Translations under genes and position numbers: made by a program
Notes under the pieces: generated by a model
What the model saw: the letters and a program-made list of their open reading frames with translations, nothing else
The model's database searches: none
Told to the model about the DNA's origin: nothing
DNA from: Xiphydria camelus
Taxonomy: Eukaryota; Arthropoda; Insecta; Hymenoptera; Xiphydriidae
DNA: 64,000 nucleotides
Assembly (NCBI GenBank): GCA_963678675.1
Contig: OY783193.1
Span: 14,764,208-14,828,207 of the forward strand
Direction of reading: 5' to 3'
Shown: one piece after another, positions 9,184-48,446 of the stretch
Layout of the letters: every line of letters begins with the position of its first letter
Numbering within the stretch: position 1 is the first letter of the stretch

Positions 9184-10457
9184 TTAGCAGCCCGTCCCGG
9201 CTTCGCACGAATAGATTGTGGATTGAATTTGTCCGTCCACCATTGTTTAAATACATTTTTAATACAAAACTTTTAGTATTTTTCCCGGGCTACGCAATGG
9301 TCATATTGAATTTGACCTTGACCATGGCCTTCAATGTTATATCAAGGTCAAATTAATTTTTTTTCACGTTCAAATGTGTCCTTGACCATCTTTTTCATGT
9401 TACCTTTATTGTCAGCGGAGGTCAAATTTAGGTCAAGTATAGTTCGACTTTTTAAACACTCTGTATAAGATTTACTAACTCAGAAACCTTCGCGGATAAG
9501 CGTCCAACTGTTCCCCAAATTCTCATCGCAATCGGATGAACGGTTTAGGAAGGCATAATAATCATCCGTACCGGTACTTTTTGAACACCCTGTATAAGAT
9601 TTACTAACTCAGAAACCTTCGCGGGCATGCGTCCAACCATTTCCCAACTTTTCATCGCAATCGGATGAACGGTTTAGGAAGGCATAATAATCATCAGTAC
9701 TGGTACTTTTTGAACACCTTTTATAAGATTTACTAACTCAGAAACCTTCGCGGGCATGCGTCCAACCATTCCCCAAAGTTTCATCGCAATCGGATGAACG
9801 GTTTAGGAAGGCATAATAATCATCCGTACCGGTACTTTTTGAACACCCTGTATAAGATTTACTAACTCAGAAACCTTCGCGGGCATGCGTCCAACCATTC
9901 CCCAACTTTTCATCGCAATCGGATGAACGGTTTAGGAAGGCATAATAATCATCAGTACCGGTACTTTTTGAACACCTTTTATAAGATTTACTAACTCAGA
10001 AACCTTCGCGCGCATGCGTCCAACCATTCCCCAAAGTTTCATCGCAATAGGATGAACGGTTTAGGAAGGCATAATAATCATCCGTACCGGTACTTTTTGA
10101 ACACCCTGTATAAGATTTACTAACTCAGAAACCTTCGCGGGCGTGCGTCCAACCATTCCCCAACTTTTCATCGCAATCGGATGAACGGTTTAGGAAGGCA
10201 TAATAATCATCCGTACCGGTACTTTTTGAACACCCTGTATAAGATTTACTAACTCAGAAACCTTCGCGGGCATGCGTCCAACCATTCCCCAAAGTTTCAT
10301 CGCAATCGGATGAACGGTTTAGGAAGGCATTTGATATTACCTTAACGGTCACGGTCAAGGTCAAATCCAATACGACCACTGGGTAGCCAAGGGAAAATCC
10401 TTAGTTTTGTATGAAACATTTTTCTCTAAAATGTTTTCCCGTTGAGATAATCCAGCT
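9184..10457 (-). mobile_element. Non-autonomous Helitron, 5-prime truncated
   Basis: Read on the minus strand, the 3-prime end is GTGCGAAGCCGGGACGGG, then CTGCTAA, with T as the next base. This fits the Helitron pattern of a short hairpin, CTRR and insertion before T. The interior is mostly a 129-bp tandem array. The 5-prime side ends near 10457 without the TC start seen in the copy at 47254. There is no Rep/helicase coding. Confidence 0.65.
9460..10330 (-). repeat. 129-bp tandem repeat, about seven units
   Basis: The string AGGCATAATAATCAT recurs at 9551, 9680, 9809, 9938, 10067 and 10196, exactly 129 bp apart; a seventh unit begins at 10325 and runs into the flanking sequence. Units differ at a few positions, for example CCAACTTTTC versus CCAAAGTTTC in an alternating pattern. 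It belongs to the Helitron; the copy at 47254 has the same units inverted relative to this one. Confidence 0.9.
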
Positions 10458-14446: not shown

Positions 14447-14862
14447 ACGGTTCTATTTTTTAACATCAACACTCCGTTTCGTTTGAACGCTCAACTGGTT
14501 CTGACCGCATGTATCCGGATACAAGTCGATGTATCCAACGGTATGTTGCCAACAGCGACATCGTGTTGGCAACACTCAATGTTGATGTTGCCAACAGCGA
14601 TGTTGATGTTGCCAACAGCGATGTTGCCAACAGCCATAAACGTGTTGCCAACATGTTGCCAACATTTTGTATCCTGGTCTAAACGTACCTTTACATCAAC
14701 ATCGCTGTTGGCAACATCAACATTGAGTGTTGCCAACAAGATGTCGCTGTTGGCAACATACTGTTGGATACATCGACTTGTATCCGGATACATGCGGTCA
14801 GAACCAGTTGAGCGTCCAAACGAAATAGAGTGTTGACATTTAAAAATGGAACCGTCAACAAA
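14447..14862. repeat. Central TGTTGSCAACA palindrome
   Basis: Arms of about 200 bp. Both start at GACGGTTC, pass TTCGTTTGRACGCTCAACTGG and ATGTATCCGGATACAAGTCG, and then reach ten exact 11-mer motifs arranged in both orientations around an AACGTGTTGCCAACATG core. Confidence 0.85.
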
Positions 14863-34810: not shown

Positions 34811-35674
34811 ATTCTTTCTAGCGCAGATCGATATTATGCTGCACCTGTATTCTTCTGGGACTTCCTAAAATAATTATCAAAACCCCATATAATTCAGCCC
34901 TGACAAGTACAATCTTATCGAGCTGTACTTTATCGAGGAGATCTTTCGACGTAATGATTCCGAAACGTTTCTATGATGTATCGCAACATTCGTGAATTTA
35001 TCAAGAAATATATATTTCTAACATACGGTAGTGTTCACGAATATTGTAAAACATCGCAAAAACGTTACAGAAAAGTTACTTTCAAAAACGTGCTTTGTGG
35101 GGTGTAAATGATGATGATATTTTGTAATTTCCATCGTTACACTAGAGGCGAAGAAGAGATGAAATAGAAGTGAGGTACATGTACACTTCACGTTTGACAG
35201 GTCGGTATATAAATTGGAACTTGTGATAGTATAATACGAAAAAGGAAATATATTGATAAAGAAAAAATAATTATAAAGTAGTTACTCCATTATTGTAATC
35301 CAATTCCATTGTATCCCTTATTTTTCTGCCACGACTTTGATTGTTGATAATGGATGGATCAACCAATATAAATTTGATTTTTCTTCACTATCAGCAATTA
35401 AAGTCGTTGCAGAAAAATAAGTGATACAATGTTATTGGATTACAATAATGGAGTAACTATTTTATTATTTTTTTTTCTTTATCGATATATTTCCTATTTT
35501 GTATCATACTATCACAAGTTCCAATTTATACACCGACCTGTCAAACATGAAGTGTACATGTACCTCACTTCTACCGTATGTCTGACGGCAAGCGCAACAA
35601 AACTTCGGCAGTTTTTACCGACGGTGGTCGAAAATTGCATTGGATTTACCTAATGCAAGATTCGACCACCGTCG

Positions 35675-35713
35675 CACAGTGCGGCGAGTCAATGGGAAAT
35701 AGGGAAAAAACTG
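35675..35713 (+). promoter_or_regulatory. Left Transib end, 23-RSS-like
   Basis: Heptamer CACAGTG at 35675-35681. An A-rich nonamer-like GAAAAAACT starts at 35704 after 22 bp, or AAAAAACTG at 35705 after 23 bp. This resembles the longer-spacer antigen-receptor recombination signal. Confidence 0.7.
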
Positions 35714-35972
35714 AAAACTTAACTATAACGAAGTTTTAGTGATACAATTTTGTTGAATTTTCATTTAATTGTACATTGAAATATATATTTCGTCAAAGAA
35801 GTAAAATAATATCACATTGTTTAAACTTTTCAGGTTGCGTTATTAGCAATATGAAACTCAACTAAAAGAATACTTTTTTTGAAGTAAATATTACATTCCT
35901 GCGTAAAATATGTACATACAATTAATTAAAAATTAATTTTTACGAACATTTAGCACTAAATATTCTGAATCA

Positions 35973-37865
35973 TCAATCGCATGAATTTTCACTACAAAGA
36001 AGGTAGCTTTCAATATCATCATCGAATATTCTTGTTCGCCTCCGTACAATTTTCCTGTTCATGGAAATATACGGGTCAGACATCAGCAATAGGTTGTTTA
36101 TTACGTCTTGACAATTATTTAATCTTGAGGACTTTCTAGCGTGATTTAATCTAGTGCGTCGAAAAACTTTGTGCGTAGCTTCGAGAGCCTCCTCAGACAA
36201 TTGTCCAATTGGTATTTCAAAATATTTCATGATGTCAACTGCGTGAAAGAAGAGTTTATACAAAGTACTTGGCATGTAATACCAAGAATAATGTTGTAAA
36301 TACAGGTCTTTGGTTTGACAAAGGAGTAATTTAAATTGTTCCAAATCAACAGCTGAACCACTTGCAATAACACGTAGAATCACAGAGAACTTTTGAATCA
36401 AAGTCTCATTGATTCCAGTAATTTCAGAGCTTAGCTTAGAGTTCGCAAAAAACCTCCGCGCAGTATTACCATCATTTGACGACCCAAACCCTGGTTTCGG
36501 CTGGTCAACATTTAAACCCATTTTTGATTGGAACTCAGATTGAATTCGTTTTTTCTCAGCATGAAATAAAACTTTGTTTTCATATTCTTGAACTCGCCAT
36601 TTTTTAAAACGAAGCCTGTATACAATATGTAAGAGACATTCAAACAACCTTATCCAAAGGTGTAATGTTGATAGTCCAAAACGGTAATTTTCCTCATTTG
36701 GAGACTTCTCATAACATTTAACGGTGTTCATTTCACTAGGTAACGCGCCACATATAAAACATTTTGAGGTAGAGCTTGTTTCTGACAAAATGTTACAAAC
36801 ACTTCCATCAACCATGGTCAAAAGAAATTTGAAGCATACTTTGAGACTATAGCCAGATACACTCTCAGTACAATCTTCAAGGCTTTTTATTTTAGCCTGC
36901 ATAGAAATCTCTTCTTGTTGAACAAGCTCAGGACATTCTTTGTAAAAGACAAACTTAATGGGCCTACAAAATAGAACAGATCCAGGGGTTTCATTATCCC
37001 ACAGACACTCGCCTGAATTTATATCAATTAATCTCAGAGGAACAAAGGCGATTAAAAACAAGTATTCATCCGTATTCTTGGAATTTTCAAATTTTTGTTT
37101 GTAGATACTGTGACTACCACTACCGTCAAAGCCCCATTTACACACCAGTTTACCTCTTGTATCTTTCCCTATTTCTACAGACTCTGATATGCTATGAACA
37201 GTTTTCTTCATAACATCTTGCAAATCAACTTCCCCAGATGTTTTAGTTACAGTTGTTTTCGGCAACACCCCTTTTTTCGTATGTCGAATAGCATACAGAC
37301 TAGGAAAACAGTCCTTGTGTAATGCATTTACTGTACTCCTCAAAACCTCATATTTCCTCTCTGTTAGGTCAAGGTCTAGATACAATGATAAAGCGTCAAC
37401 TGGCGATAAACACTTAGCAACATCAACATTTGACAAGCTTGGTCCGGATAATTCTGCGGCAAAGCTTAGTTCTTCGCGGGATCTTGTTGTGACCAAATCT
37501 TCCACTCTCTGTTTCTTTATTTTCGTGCCGCATTCTTCAAATGGTTTTTTTGGTCTTCCACCTTTGTTCGAAACCGAGGTAGTCGGTGTACTTTTGAAAG
37601 AAGTTATTTTTTCAGGAAGAGTATGCACAGAATTCAGCCAATCCTTGTTTTTCTCTAAAAAAAAGTCACAATTTCTTTTGCACTTTTGCCATCTTCTGTA
37701 GATATTTGAACATGTTGTTTTAACATGGTTTTGTAAATCGTCCTCTTCACTTTCCCCCAAACTCTCTTTCAAATTAAACCTGGATCTTATAAAGGCCGCA
37801 ACAACAGACGATCGGTCGTCCGGGACAGACGACCACGCTTCGAAGAGTTCCCGATTCGTACACAT
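35973..37865 (-). CDS. Transib (RAG1-family) transposase
   Basis: 630 codons without interruption. It would be a nuclear DDE/D-type transposase that nicks and hairpins DNA at CACAGTG ends. Motifs seen: KWGFDGSGS with the first catalytic Asp near residue 247 (compare RAG1 FDGAGD); LLTMVDGSV with the second Asp near 353; SKCFICGA, a CxxC pair at 369/372 as in the RAG1 zinc-binding insertion; and IGQLSEEALEATHKVFRRTR with the catalytic Glu near 559, matching the RAG1 SEGNESGNKLFRR block. The D-D spacing of 106 is close to the RAG1 value; D-E of 206 is shorter. A basic GGRPKK stretch lies at 102-107. The first Met of the open frame is used; an upstream exon cannot be excluded. No RAG2-like partner is seen. 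Alignment is from memory of the family, but the motif order is clear. Confidence 0.92.
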   Translation of the reverse strand: MCTNRELFEAWSSVPDDRSSVVAAFIRSRFNLKESLGESEEDDLQNHVKTTCSNIYRRWQKCKRNCDFFLEKNKDWLNSVHTLPEKITSFKSTPTTSVSNKGGRPKKPFEECGTKIKKQRVEDLVTTRSREELSFAAELSGPSLSNVDVAKCLSPVDALSLYLDLDLTERKYEVLRSTVNALHKDCFPSLYAIRHTKKGVLPKTTVTKTSGEVDLQDVMKKTVHSISESVEIGKDTRGKLVCKWGFDGSGSHSIYKQKFENSKNTDEYLFLIAFVPLRLIDINSGECLWDNETPGSVLFCRPIKFVFYKECPELVQQEEISMQAKIKSLEDCTESVSGYSLKVCFKFLLTMVDGSVCNILSETSSTSKCFICGALPSEMNTVKCYEKSPNEENYRFGLSTLHLWIRLFECLLHIVYRLRFKKWRVQEYENKVLFHAEKKRIQSEFQSKMGLNVDQPKPGFGSSNDGNTARRFFANSKLSSEITGINETLIQKFSVILRVIASGSAVDLEQFKLLLCQTKDLYLQHYSWYYMPSTLYKLFFHAVDIMKYFEIPIGQLSEEALEATHKVFRRTRLNHARKSSRLNNCQDVINNLLLMSDPYISMNRKIVRRRTRIFDDDIESYLLCSENSCD

Positions 37866-39480
37866 TCTCTATAACAGCAATGTTAGGAAACCGTGCGATC
37901 AATGCTAGATCTAAGTGGAGTAGTAAATCTTGAAGACACTCGTTCGTGACACGATTACTTACCAAACCACTGCAAGGCGGATTTGAAGCTCTCGGCTGTT
38001 TTGCTTGAACGTGTGTGTGGTGAAGTAGTTTAAACCTCGCGGTTAATCCAAATGAGTTAACACTGCACTCATTATATTATTGGTAATATATTCGAGTTAA
38101 AGAGATACAGTATTTTGATGATTTAACCGTGTCTTACACTTAGCTGTTTCGAATGCACGATATGAAGACGAACCGTTTAATTACAAGTTAGCGCTTGCAC
38201 TTTGAATACACTGTGTACGGTCAGCGGTGCACTTCGTTTATGCATTAATACGTATTTAGTTGCGGCTTATATACCTTCATCTAACAGTAGTTGAAAAATG
38301 GTGGGTATAGCGTGGGCTGATGCGGTGCGCCCTGATTGGCTAGGAGAGACTGACAATAGAATAAAGGATGACGTTGGTTATTTTTCGCATCCCGTATCTA
38401 GTGGACAAGGGTACCGTTGCTCGCAATTAGCCTTCCTGGAAAAGGTACAACGTTGCGAACTCATTAGCGGCCTAGATTTGCCGAAATATATCGCCTAATG
38501 GATAGATTGACCCCAAGATTAGTCAGGTATTTCGATCGCGATGACACTGAGTGATAAGAATCAATATTTAGAATTCTGACTATCGTCTGTCGGAAGATTA
38601 AGACACTGCTGCGTATGAAAAAGTAGCAGATACTTTCAGCCGTGATGGTATTACCGCATATAGCAATTCGATAAATTATTTTAAAATTTATTTGGACAAT
38701 AAACTTTTCAAAATATCTCGAAACGGTAAGGAATGCGACGGAATAGAAATAATATTGGGGTTTCAAAGGGGGTCGAACTTTAAATTATATTAATTTTACC
38801 GTAGAAAGCGAATTGATAATTTGTTTAAACAATAAACTTATGTACATATCTTGAAAATTATGAGAGATACGAAGAAGCGGGTAAAATTTTAAAACGGTAC
38901 GTAGGAATTCGAATCCGAAGCCGCGATCTTATTACCGAAGTAATAGTACGAACCTCTATTGAGGCACGCGGCAAGGATTAAAAAATGCTGTATATCAAAG
39001 GCTAGCAGGTACTAGCAGCCAAATTTTGCTTAAGCGAATAAAGGCTATTGTACTCTGTACGTTAGAACAAGAATTAGCTCGACACCTCATGACACTCATT
39101 AGATAAACCTTCTGAAAGTCAACAACTTTGACGGAGTTGAAGTAAAATGAGGCCTCATTCAAATAGGCGATTAAAACAATAACAACCAATAAGAGTAACA
39201 AAGAATAGGTCGAAAACATAGTTCTTACTCTAATGAACAAAATCTATGCAAACAAACCGATGATTTTCGGGCGAATTCACATTTTCCAATAAATCGAAAT
39301 CTCCGCGTCGCACACCTCCTCTGTGTGTAACGTAGACTGCTCAAACAAGCTGATATTCAGAGCGGTGTTGCACAGGTGCCAGTGGAATTTTTCGTAAACA
39401 AGCTTTAGTTTCTTGTTTGGGGACTATTTCTTTTGACCTACGTGTGTTTTAGAACCGTTTTTGTACAACTTGATTTTTTG

Positions 39481-39508
39481 GGTTTTTTCCATTGGTCGCC
39501 GCACTGTG
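39481..39508 (-). promoter_or_regulatory. Right Transib end, 12-RSS-like
   Basis: Read inward on the minus strand: heptamer CACAGTG (39502-39508), 12-bp spacer CGGCGACCAATG (39490-39501), nonamer-like GAAAAAACC (39481-39489). The nonamer matches the RSS consensus ACAAAAACC at seven of nine positions. Confidence 0.75.
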
Positions 39509-42500
39509 CGTCGGTAAAAACTGCCGAAGTTTTGTTGCGCTTGCCGTCAGACATACGGTATTTCATCTCTTCTTCGCCTCTGGTGTAACGATGGAAATTA
39601 CAAAATATCATCATTTACACCCCAAAAAGCACGTTTTTGCATGTAACTTTTCTGTAACTTTTCTGCGATATTTTACAATATTTGTGAACACTACCGTATG
39701 TTAGAAATATATATTTCTCAATAAATTCGTGAATGTTGCGAAACATCATAGAAACGTTTCGGAATCATTACGTCGAAATATCTCCTCGATAAGGTACAGC
39801 TCGATAAGATTGTACTTAGCAGGGCTGAATTATATAGGGTTTTTATAATTATTTTAGGAAGTCCCAGAAGAATACAGGTGCAGCAAAATATCGATTCTAT
39901 GCTAGAAAGAATAAGGAATAACCCTCGAACCCTAATCGGTATCAGTGATTCCTCATTGACCGTCCTTACACAAGAGGCGAAGAAAAGATGAAATAGAAGT
40001 GAGGTACATGTACACTTCACGTTTGACAGGTCGGTATATAAATTGAAACATGCGATAGTAGTATAATACGGTGCCCGATTTTTGCCAATAACTGTTGCTT
40101 CAACTTCCAGTGATATTAAGTATTACTGCAAAACGAGTAGGTTAGAAGATTTTCATGAAGACTCATGATTACCTGACATGTCATCTCGTACAGGTGCAAC
40201 CGAAGAGGATCCAGCTCGGGTCCTGTCCGTAAAAAGATGACTCGATAGACATTGGAGAATGTCAGACTTGTCACCGAGTGCCTATTACCCATGGTACATT
40301 AATTGCAATACGCGCTTCTCGTTTCATTCAACTATTCCAGCGTTAAATAACTTTTACTTCTTTCAAGCTAATAACCTTTTATGAACTGTTCGTGGTAGGA
40401 GACAGCGATCGATAATAGCGACTCATCGTAGACAAGTTCGTCTATTAAAACTATAAGGCAATTCGGTGTGCCGAACTACTACTGCGATAATGTGCCCGAG
40501 CTCACGATCTATTCTGCGATTAACGTTAACGTAATCGTGATTATGCTCGGGTGATGGGTGTTCCAAAAGAGGTAAAGGTGATACTAAACATTCGACGCTG
40601 TAAGCTGATTTCCTAGTGTATGCTTTGCAACTGGAACATCATCGCAGGAATAATTTGTCTACGATGAGTCACAATCATTGATCGCTGCCCCCCACGATGA
40701 ACAATTTGTACAAGGTAAATACTTTGGAAGAAGTGAAAGTTATTTAAAGCAGGAATAGTTGAAACGAAAAGCGCATATTGCAATGAAAGTATCATGGGTG
40801 ATAGGCGCTCGGTGACAAGCCTGACATTCTCCGATGTCCATCGAGTCATCTTTTTACGGACAGGATACGAACTAGATCCTCTTCTGTTGCACCTGTACGA
40901 GATGACGTGTCAGAAAATCATGAGTCTTCATGAAAATCTTCTAACCTACTCGTTCTGCTGTAATACTAATATCACTGGAAGTTGAAGCAACAGTTATTGG
41001 CAAAAATCCGACACCGATTTTTAAACACTTGGGGAATCTCATCGAAGAAACCCGAATAATTATTTCTTTTCACTGTTACTCATTTTACAATATCTCTATA
41101 CATTATTCATCATTATTTACAAATTAACGATTTCGAGGTTAGATGCTTCGATCTCCCAAATTGACAGCTGCCGGGAGATCAGGAGCCCCTTTCTCAAACT
41201 CACTCGTATCTTTGCATGCACGCATCTTAGCGAATAGACTAATCAGGATCAAGTATTCCATATCAGGAAACGTATACGCATCTCAGTGAGTAGACAAATC
41301 AGCCCCCCCCCCCCCCCCACCACAACGGAATACTTGATTCTGATTGGTCTATTCGCTAAGATGCGTATACGTGACCTTGCGAGTGACTCGAGAAATTTAT
41401 TTACGAGTAAGGGCAAAATTTCAGCGGTGCATGGAAAAGGATTTCTTAAAACTATTCCAACGTCTTGAGTTAATATGTAACAACATATATACTGTCATAA
41501 GTGGTATCTTTACATGTGATAAAACAATTCGTTACGGTTATTGGAAGAGTATACTTAGAGAGTTAAAGGTAAAATGTCTACATGGATTTCTGTAGACGAC
41601 CAAAGTATAAGAAAAATCCGATGGCCTGTAAATTCGAAAGCGGTTTGTTTAATTTCTCCAAAATACTAAGGCAAAGTGAAAAATATAAGGGCATTCTAGT
41701 TTATAAATCCCTTTCAAAATATCACGAGAATAAATCAAAAGTAACGTGGTTATAATTAATTAGCTCGTATTGGTATAAAATGTGAAACTTTAATTTTGTG
41801 GTAATAAAAAGCTATTCTCATCATGAATGAATTCCAAAAAAAGTAGTGAAATCTCCCCACAAAAACAGATTCTCTGTAAAATAAGGCAGCATGTTCATTC
41901 AGTGCCAACAAAAATTGATACGTAAAATACTCTCCAAAAAAGATTTGAAATCAATTAAGATCGCCATGTTCAAGATTTATATATAAAAAGTAAAAGGCAT
42001 CATTTGAAAGGAAAATTATTGTAAATCAAGTTACTAAAAAATTCGACTAAAAAAGTTATAAAAAAATTTTAATAAAAAAGAACGCCCCGTTTTTTTCCTT
42101 CAAAATAAGAAATTCAGACACAGAATTATACTTGATATTTATGCACTTATGATTTTAAATAAATTCATACACTTATATGATACCACCAGTATACCGAATG
42201 TCGCACGGGAAACCGATCAGGCGAGGGCCTTTTGAATTTCTCTGAATTTGACTTCGGCAGTGCAATTTATGAATCACTCGAGCACCGTCTAAGCACTGCT
42301 AATTATTCGGTATAATGGACAAAATATGAAAACTTAAACGCGGCAAGTTCTTTTTTATTAAAATTTTTCATAACTTCTTTTAGTCGAATTTTTTAATAAC
42401 GATTTACAATTATTTTCCTTTCAAATGATGCCTTTTACTTTTTATATGTAAATCTTGAACATGGCGATCTTAATTGATTTCAAATCTTTTTTGGAGAGTA

Positions 42501-47253: not shown

Positions 47254-48446
47254 TCTATATATATAAAAATGAATGTTTGTCTGTCTGTCTGTATGTCTCT
47301 TATGCCTTCCTAAACCGTTCATCCGATTGCGATGAAATTTTGGGAAATGGTTGGACGCATGCCCGCGATGGTTTCTGAGTTGGTAAATCTTATACAGGGT
47401 GTTCAAAAAGTCCCGGTACGGCCGATTATCTCAGCGGGAAAACATTTTAGAGAAAAATGTTTAATACAAAACTTTAAGGATTTTATCTTGGCAATCCATT
47501 GGTCGTATTGGATTTGACCTTGACCGTGACCTTTATGGTAATATCAAATGCCTTCCTAAACCGTTCATTCGATTGCGATGAAACTTTGGGGAATGGTTGG
47601 ACGCATGCCCGCGAAGGTTTCTGAGTTCGTAAATCTTATACAGGGTGTTCAAAAAGTACCGGTACGGATGATTATTATGCCTTCCTAAACCGTTCATCCG
47701 ATTGCGATGAAACTTTGGGGAATGGTTGGACGCATGCCCGCGAAGGTTTCTGAGTTAGTAAATCTTATACAGGGCGTTCAAAAAGTACCAGTACTGATGA
47801 TTATTATGCCTTCCTAAACCGTTCATCCGATTGCGATGAAACTTTGAAGAATGGTTGGACGCATGCCCGCGAAGGTTTCTGAGTTAGTAAATCGTATACA
47901 GGGTGTTCAAAAAGTACCGGTACGGATGATTATTATGCCTTCTTAAACCGTTCATCCGATTGCGATGAAAATTTGGGGAACAGGTGGACACATATCCACG
48001 AAGGTTTCTGAGTTAGTAAATCTTATACAGGGTGTTCAAAAAGTCAAACTATACTTGACCTAAATTTGACCTCCGCTGACAATAAAGGTAACATGAAAAA
48101 AATGGTCAAGGACACATTTGAACGCGAAAAAAAAATAATTTGACCTTGATATAACCTTGAAGGTCATGGTCAAGGTCAAATCCAATATGACCATTGGGTA
48201 GCCCGGGAAAAATACTAAAAGTTTTGTATTAAAAATTTTTCTATAAAATGATTTCCCGCTGAGATATTCAGCCGTACCGGGACTTTTTGAAGGTCAAGTA
48301 CAGTTCGGCTTCATACCATGAAAACTATGGGCCCTATAAAAATTCTTTTTGATAGTAGGGTTTAGGATTTTTCCGTAACTAACAATGTGGTGGACGGACA
48401 AAATCAATCCACAATCTACCCGTGCGAAGCCGGGGCGGGCTGCTAG
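47254..48446 (+). mobile_element. Non-autonomous Helitron with 129-bp repeats
   Basis: Starts TCTATATATATAAAAATG after an A and ends GTGCGAAGCCGGGGCGGGC, then TGCTAG, before a T. TC start, terminal hairpin, CTAG end and A|T insertion without duplication are the Helitron signature. Inside, a CTGTCTGTCTGTC run is followed by a first GTTCATCCGATTGCGATG unit, a non-repeat segment, and about four more tandem units. No Rep/helicase gene is present. A truncated copy lies at 9184-10457. Confidence 0.75.

Follow-up and report, generated by a model that had tools for sequence, protein, structure and literature searches.

Transib is the transposon family behind the antibody-gene recombinase, and its members may serve as natural systems to test how the 12/23 rule came about. 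Here we ask whether a Transib element of the hymenopteran Xiphydria camelus carries two ends whose spacing differs much as that of vertebrate recombination signals does. The element occupies positions 35675-39508 of a 64,000-nucleotide stretch of contig OY783193.1 (the window; C10:14764208-14828207 in the searched genome of 357 Mb and 38 contigs). It is a young and genuine Transib with conserved asymmetric ends, and we consider it likely that it represents an autonomous, very recently mobile element, whose bipartite ends have spacers of 12 and 22 bp.

Two unlike ends enclose an uninterrupted transposase gene

The element comprises 3834 bp, with end points that are the same in 20/20 copies fetched from the genome. 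As a sequence-only reading had proposed, it is flanked by an exact CGTCG target-site duplication (35670-35674 and 39509-39513), which was read directly and confirmed by copy comparison, and it starts and finishes with inward-facing CACAGTG heptamers. At the left end, i.e. the 3' end relative to the gene, the heptamer (35675-35681, plus strand) is followed by a 22-bp spacer (35682-35703, plus strand) and the nonamer-like block GAAAAAACT (35704-35712, plus strand); the spacer measures 23 bp if counted to the AAAAAACT core. At the right end, located 5' of the gene, the heptamer (39502-39508, minus strand) and the nonamer-like block GAAAAAACC (39481-39489, minus strand) are separated by a spacer of 12 bp (39490-39501, minus strand). 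Both spacers, obtained by direct reading and from a listing of the family ends, have the lengths given in the earlier reading. The 12-type end is accordingly upstream of the gene in this copy and the 22-type end on its 3' side. The block common to both ends of the family is GGAAAAAAC, present at spacer 11 and 21, which corresponds to an offset of 10 rather than 11 bp; the spacers can be read as 12/22 or 13/23, and the shift amounts to 10 bp either way. When the flanks are joined without the element, they yield a 150-nt palindrome that is 93% self-complementary and belongs to a repeat that recurs many times across the window. The palindrome starts with a left part at 35572-35674, is interrupted by the insertion and resumes at 39514-39560; this splitting of one palindrome arm supports the exact element boundaries.

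The element holds a single long gene on the minus strand (35973-37865), which encodes a transposase of 630 codons without a stop, as claimed before. Five other frames of the element (66-167 aa) remained without a Pfam hit up to an E value of 1, and no other ATG-started open reading frame of at least 140 aa is present in it; this screen included neither a RAG2 profile nor intron modelling. A profile search placed the 630-aa protein with Transib (HzTransib at 3.4e-189, RAG1 at 3.1e-15), in agreement with the assignment made from sequence alone. Residues D247, D353 and E562 align to the catalytic aspartates and glutamate (DDE) of HzTransib, which are D126, D225 and E436 in excerpts of PMC6941560, and are invariant or at least 90% conserved across 100 alignment rows. 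In the predicted fold, the catalytic core (residues 150-626) superposes on HzTransib at 1.9 Å; the solved HzTransib chain matches the protein only from residue 150, so that region 1-149 lies outside the match. This region contains the sequence GGRP at 102-105, including a GRP motif at 103-105.

The family moved recently

When the genome was searched with the leftmost 300 bp of the element, 40 of 77 candidates were scored; 23 of these have 99-100% identity and 17 have 90-92%. The 20 scored copies ranking next after the window copy were fetched in full, and all of them are bounded exactly by element bp 1 and 3834. Two are full length (L052 and L053), while 18/20 carry internal deletions. Exact 5-bp duplications flank 19/20 of these copies as well as the window copy (20/21), the duplicated sequence being CGNCG in 19 cases and TGACG in one; at the remaining copy, L058, four of the five duplication bases agree. 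CACAGTG is present at both ends in 21/21 copies. Over 1430 terminal bp, the mean divergence among these copies and the window copy (21 in total) is 0.30% and the maximum 0.91%, with 40 private changes versus 2 shared variable columns. Since the changes are mostly private, the data suggest that the copies arose in a star-like burst. Recent mobility of the family is well supported, in line with the proposal that the window copy is young.

Copy L053 is open across 629 codons, whereas L052 carries a stop. When copies were defined by paired ends (see below), 4/34 were full length; among the full-length copies other than those named, the one at C10:9074159 likewise contains a stop. The earlier reading had also called the window copy an active-type element. 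The open frame, the catalytic triad, the intact ends and the open L053 are consistent with this view, and the element is probably active, activity itself being a prediction from sequence.

Spacing is maintained across the family

The heptamer CACAGTG alone is uninformative, as it occurs ~33,000 times in the genome. A 20-21-base end pattern had 85 genome matches versus 0 for a reversed-pattern control, and the pattern with a free gap detected 93 ends, again versus 0 for the reversed control. Among the 85 window-family ends the spacing is 12 in 43, 22 in 41 and 21 in one. The latter is a lone end with a variant spacer at C6:16185655-16185689, possibly a decayed copy. Convergent ends formed 37 element pairs, 34 of the window family and 3 of a second family (F2), all of which are 12/22. 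The asymmetry noted at the window copy is therefore repeated in 37/37 pairs found by pattern. No 12/12 or 22/22 element was found among them, which bears on a pairing rule only indirectly.

The left spacer variants AAATAGGG (35 ends), AAACAGGG (5) and AAGTAGGG (1) all retain 22 bp. A sister subfamily of ~91% identity has kept its left end, block included, without change in the five copies read in left-end orientation (L032-L035 and L037). Two further copies of this subfamily were fetched, in which the body differs by 7-12% from the window element: in L059 the terminal 50 bp on the right are unchanged, and in L060 the right end aligns only up to bp 3830.

Asymmetric ends recur in two further families

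The genome is rich in Transibs, with at least 89 matches when 70 of 863 candidates were scored; several families have 37-50% identity to the window protein, and many open frames of 600-700 codons are present. F2 (44% protein identity) has four ends spaced 12 and four spaced 22. For family F5 (38% identity), a count by hand gave 10 pairs, all of them 12/23, and one unpaired end, 21 ends in total. F5 is a cleaner 12/23 case than the window family; its pairs lie on C14, C17, C20, C24, C32 and C1, and a 15-base block is common to both ends. The block shared between ends is GGAAAAAAC in the window family and GGACAAAAAT in F2 (offset 10 each) and AAAGCGGCCATAAAT in F5 (offset 11), and in all three families the 12-type end precedes the gene. 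Block-identity scores reach 9 (window family), 10 (F2) and 15 (F5), whereas none of the small offsets listed (0-3) scores above 7, 6 and 5, respectively. Composition-keeping shuffles attained these scores at any offset beyond 2 in 58, 3 and 0 of 2000 cases, respectively.

A tree of 23 rows, midpoint-rooted for drawing only, groups the window family with F2 (support 100/100) and F5 with a further family, F6 (99/97); P0095, a relative of HzTransib, which itself was not included, falls in a third clade. As the window family and F2 on the one hand and F5 and F6 on the other belong to separate clades, asymmetric layouts span two deep clades, one of which also contains the symmetric-looking F6.

Alternative interpretations

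Several observations weigh against asymmetric, signal-like ends. The end pattern requires the exact block and misses ends in which the block is altered or lost; 19/93 ends are unpaired, and at least one end of the 85-match listing is absent from the free-gap listing. The 37 pairs do not amount to 37 independent tests, since family copies share ancestry; only the three families count as independent cases, and two of these belong to one clade and have 13 terminal bases in common. The shared block of the window family alone is only moderately unusual (58/2000 shuffles). F6, represented by a single copy with a CGACA duplication, has its best offset at 0 and looks symmetric, and no ends were found for F1, F8 and F9, three of the seven families looked at. 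Concerning the protein, the GRP motif does not track end asymmetry, because it is present in 93/100 rows, one HzTransib relative among them. In RAG1, the nonamer-binding domain combines a GGRPR-type hook with a helical fold that follows it. The alignment of GGRP to this domain is not significant, the N-terminal model gave no confident fold match to this domain, and RAG1 was not among the matches listed in a profile search on the nonamer-binding question. Finally, the 5' ends contain an extra A-run, at positions 23-28 after the heptamer in the window family (the second A6 run of the right end, 39474-39479, minus strand), at 23-30 in F2 and at 23-27 in F5.

These runs sit near those in the 3' ends of the three asymmetric families (24-29, 26-30 and 26-31), which makes a symmetric reading possible. 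Both ends would then be of a 22-23 type, the protein would read an A-rich run at 23-30 on either side and the block at spacer 12 would be a dispensable extra. The AT-rich runs at 22-32 and 21-30 of the two F6 ends fit this explanation, as does the introduction of PMC8289069, which calls most Transib families symmetric. We regard it as unlikely, however, given that block identity prefers the 10-11-bp offset in all three families, that the block at position 12 covaries with the 3' block between families and that the 23-28 run lacks a detailed match to the 3' block. Block identity, as judged from sequence, argues against symmetry but does not settle the matter. The RSS nonamer is ACAAAAACC. Scored out of 9 against this sequence, the 5' and 3' ends of the window family match at 7 and 6 positions (values that 203 and 291 of 5000 shuffles attain), those of the other families at 7 and 8 in F2 (38 and 5), at 6 and 5 in F5 (247 and 862) and at 2 and 6 in F6 (4878 and 457). 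The earlier suggestion that the two ends differ as recombination signals do is supported for the layout, whereas the 10-bp offset and the A-run at the 22 position of the 12-type end speak against it.

It is also very improbable that the ends merely diverged by ancestral drift and were inherited, with the A-runs as AT-rich background without a role in pairing. Ends are invariant in very young copies anyway, so that end identity proves little by itself, and the modest block score of the window family and the truncated alignment of L060 could be taken in favor of drift. Yet the sister subfamily keeps its left end through the block, and L059 its right 50 bp, despite the divergent body; the left spacer variants hold the spacing at 22, and layout and orientation are repeated in two more families. 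Hardly more credible is a window copy that is dead or domesticated rather than active: internal deletions prevail among the fetched copies, but the window copy itself has an open frame, intact ends and a target duplication, and it is accompanied by a second full-length open copy, L053, in a family with 0.30% divergence.

A possible mechanism and its implications

By analogy with HzTransib and RAG, the transposase is predicted to engage both ends, to nick the DNA 5' of each CACAGTG and to form hairpins on the flanking DNA; the excised element would be inserted at CGNCG-like sites, which are cut with a 5-bp stagger. The ends would be bipartite, each with the heptamer and a nonamer-like, A-rich block, at spacer 12 for the end 5' of the gene and at spacer 22 for the end 3' of it. 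Within a family the two blocks have a common core, so that one and the same surface of the protein probably contacts both, at positions about one helical turn from each other. We infer this cleavage chemistry, the block as a putative protein-binding site and the GRP region as its putative reader, and likewise a preference for pairing unlike ends.

A more far-reaching idea, which we find rather doubtful, is that a 12/23-type pairing rule is enforced in RAG2-less insect Transibs through one transposase and identical blocks one helical turn apart, the short end preceding the gene in every case. If true, the rule would predate RAG2 and the immune locus or would have arisen repeatedly, as asymmetric families occur in two deep clades and a symmetric-looking family in one of them. 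One genome here combines a young 12/22 family including open-frame copies, two more asymmetric families with covarying blocks and one symmetric-looking family. With this set, one can ask directly if a Transib transposase that acts as a single protein tells 12-type and 22-type ends apart.

Other repeats

Two arrays of apparently one 129-bp tandem repeat are located ~37 kb apart in the window (9447-10330 and 47548-48044), with consensus units that look reverse-complementary by eye. Short tandem arrays with motif GATGTTGCCAACAGC lie at 14543-14759. Elsewhere, the region upstream of the F1 Transib gene (L061, 1-1444) contains several long repeats in inverted and direct orientation, with 87-99% similarity, which are also found in L062.

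Comparison with known systems

As in the Transib superfamily, a homologous transposase with DDE residues is associated with 5-bp GC-rich duplications and CAC-starting, heptamer-like inverted ends. HzTransib of Helicoverpa zea, which has been characterized biochemically, has the same DDE positions, a core that superposes on the predicted one and 5-bp target duplications, and its length of 3518 bp (excerpts of PMC1852546) is similar to that of the window element. In contrast, excerpts of PMC8289069 portray its ends as symmetric and as resembling the nonamer little or not at all, and attribute symmetric ends to most Transib families, HzTransib included.

Unlike vertebrate RAG1/RAG2, to which core identity is ~18%, the window element is a transposon and not a recombinase, and no second gene was recognised in it, albeit without a RAG2 profile run. 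The spacing departs from that of 12/23 RSSs as well, since two of the three families have a shift of 10 bp and not of 11. According to a hypothesis in excerpts of PMC8355894, it was the evolution of RAG2 in vertebrates that made V(D)J recombination on asymmetric 12/23 ends possible. ProtoRAG of amphioxus differs from the window element by 27/31 spacers and a RAG1L-RAG2L gene pair (excerpts of PMC8289069 and PMC7204232).

In the literature searched, partly in excerpts and with the original of Kapitonov and Jurka 2005 beyond its reach, no description of block covariation or of a fixed short-end orientation was found; as that primary paper lies outside the comparison, we make no claim of a first report. 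Asymmetric 12/23 Transibs are already in print, namely Transib5 of Drosophila melanogaster and Transib2 and N1-N3 of Anopheles gambiae (excerpts of PMC8355894, citing Kapitonov and Jurka 2005). The window family is likened to them by published description only: it has the heptamer, the A-rich block and spacers of 12 versus ~23 at the two ends but an offset of 10, not 11. Spacers of 12 and 23 ± 1 bp to an A-rich block, which characterize asymmetric (12/23) Transibs, were observed in 37/37 pairs from the pattern search and in 10/10 F5 pairs. Asymmetric Transibs are hence not new, and the window element joins a known type.
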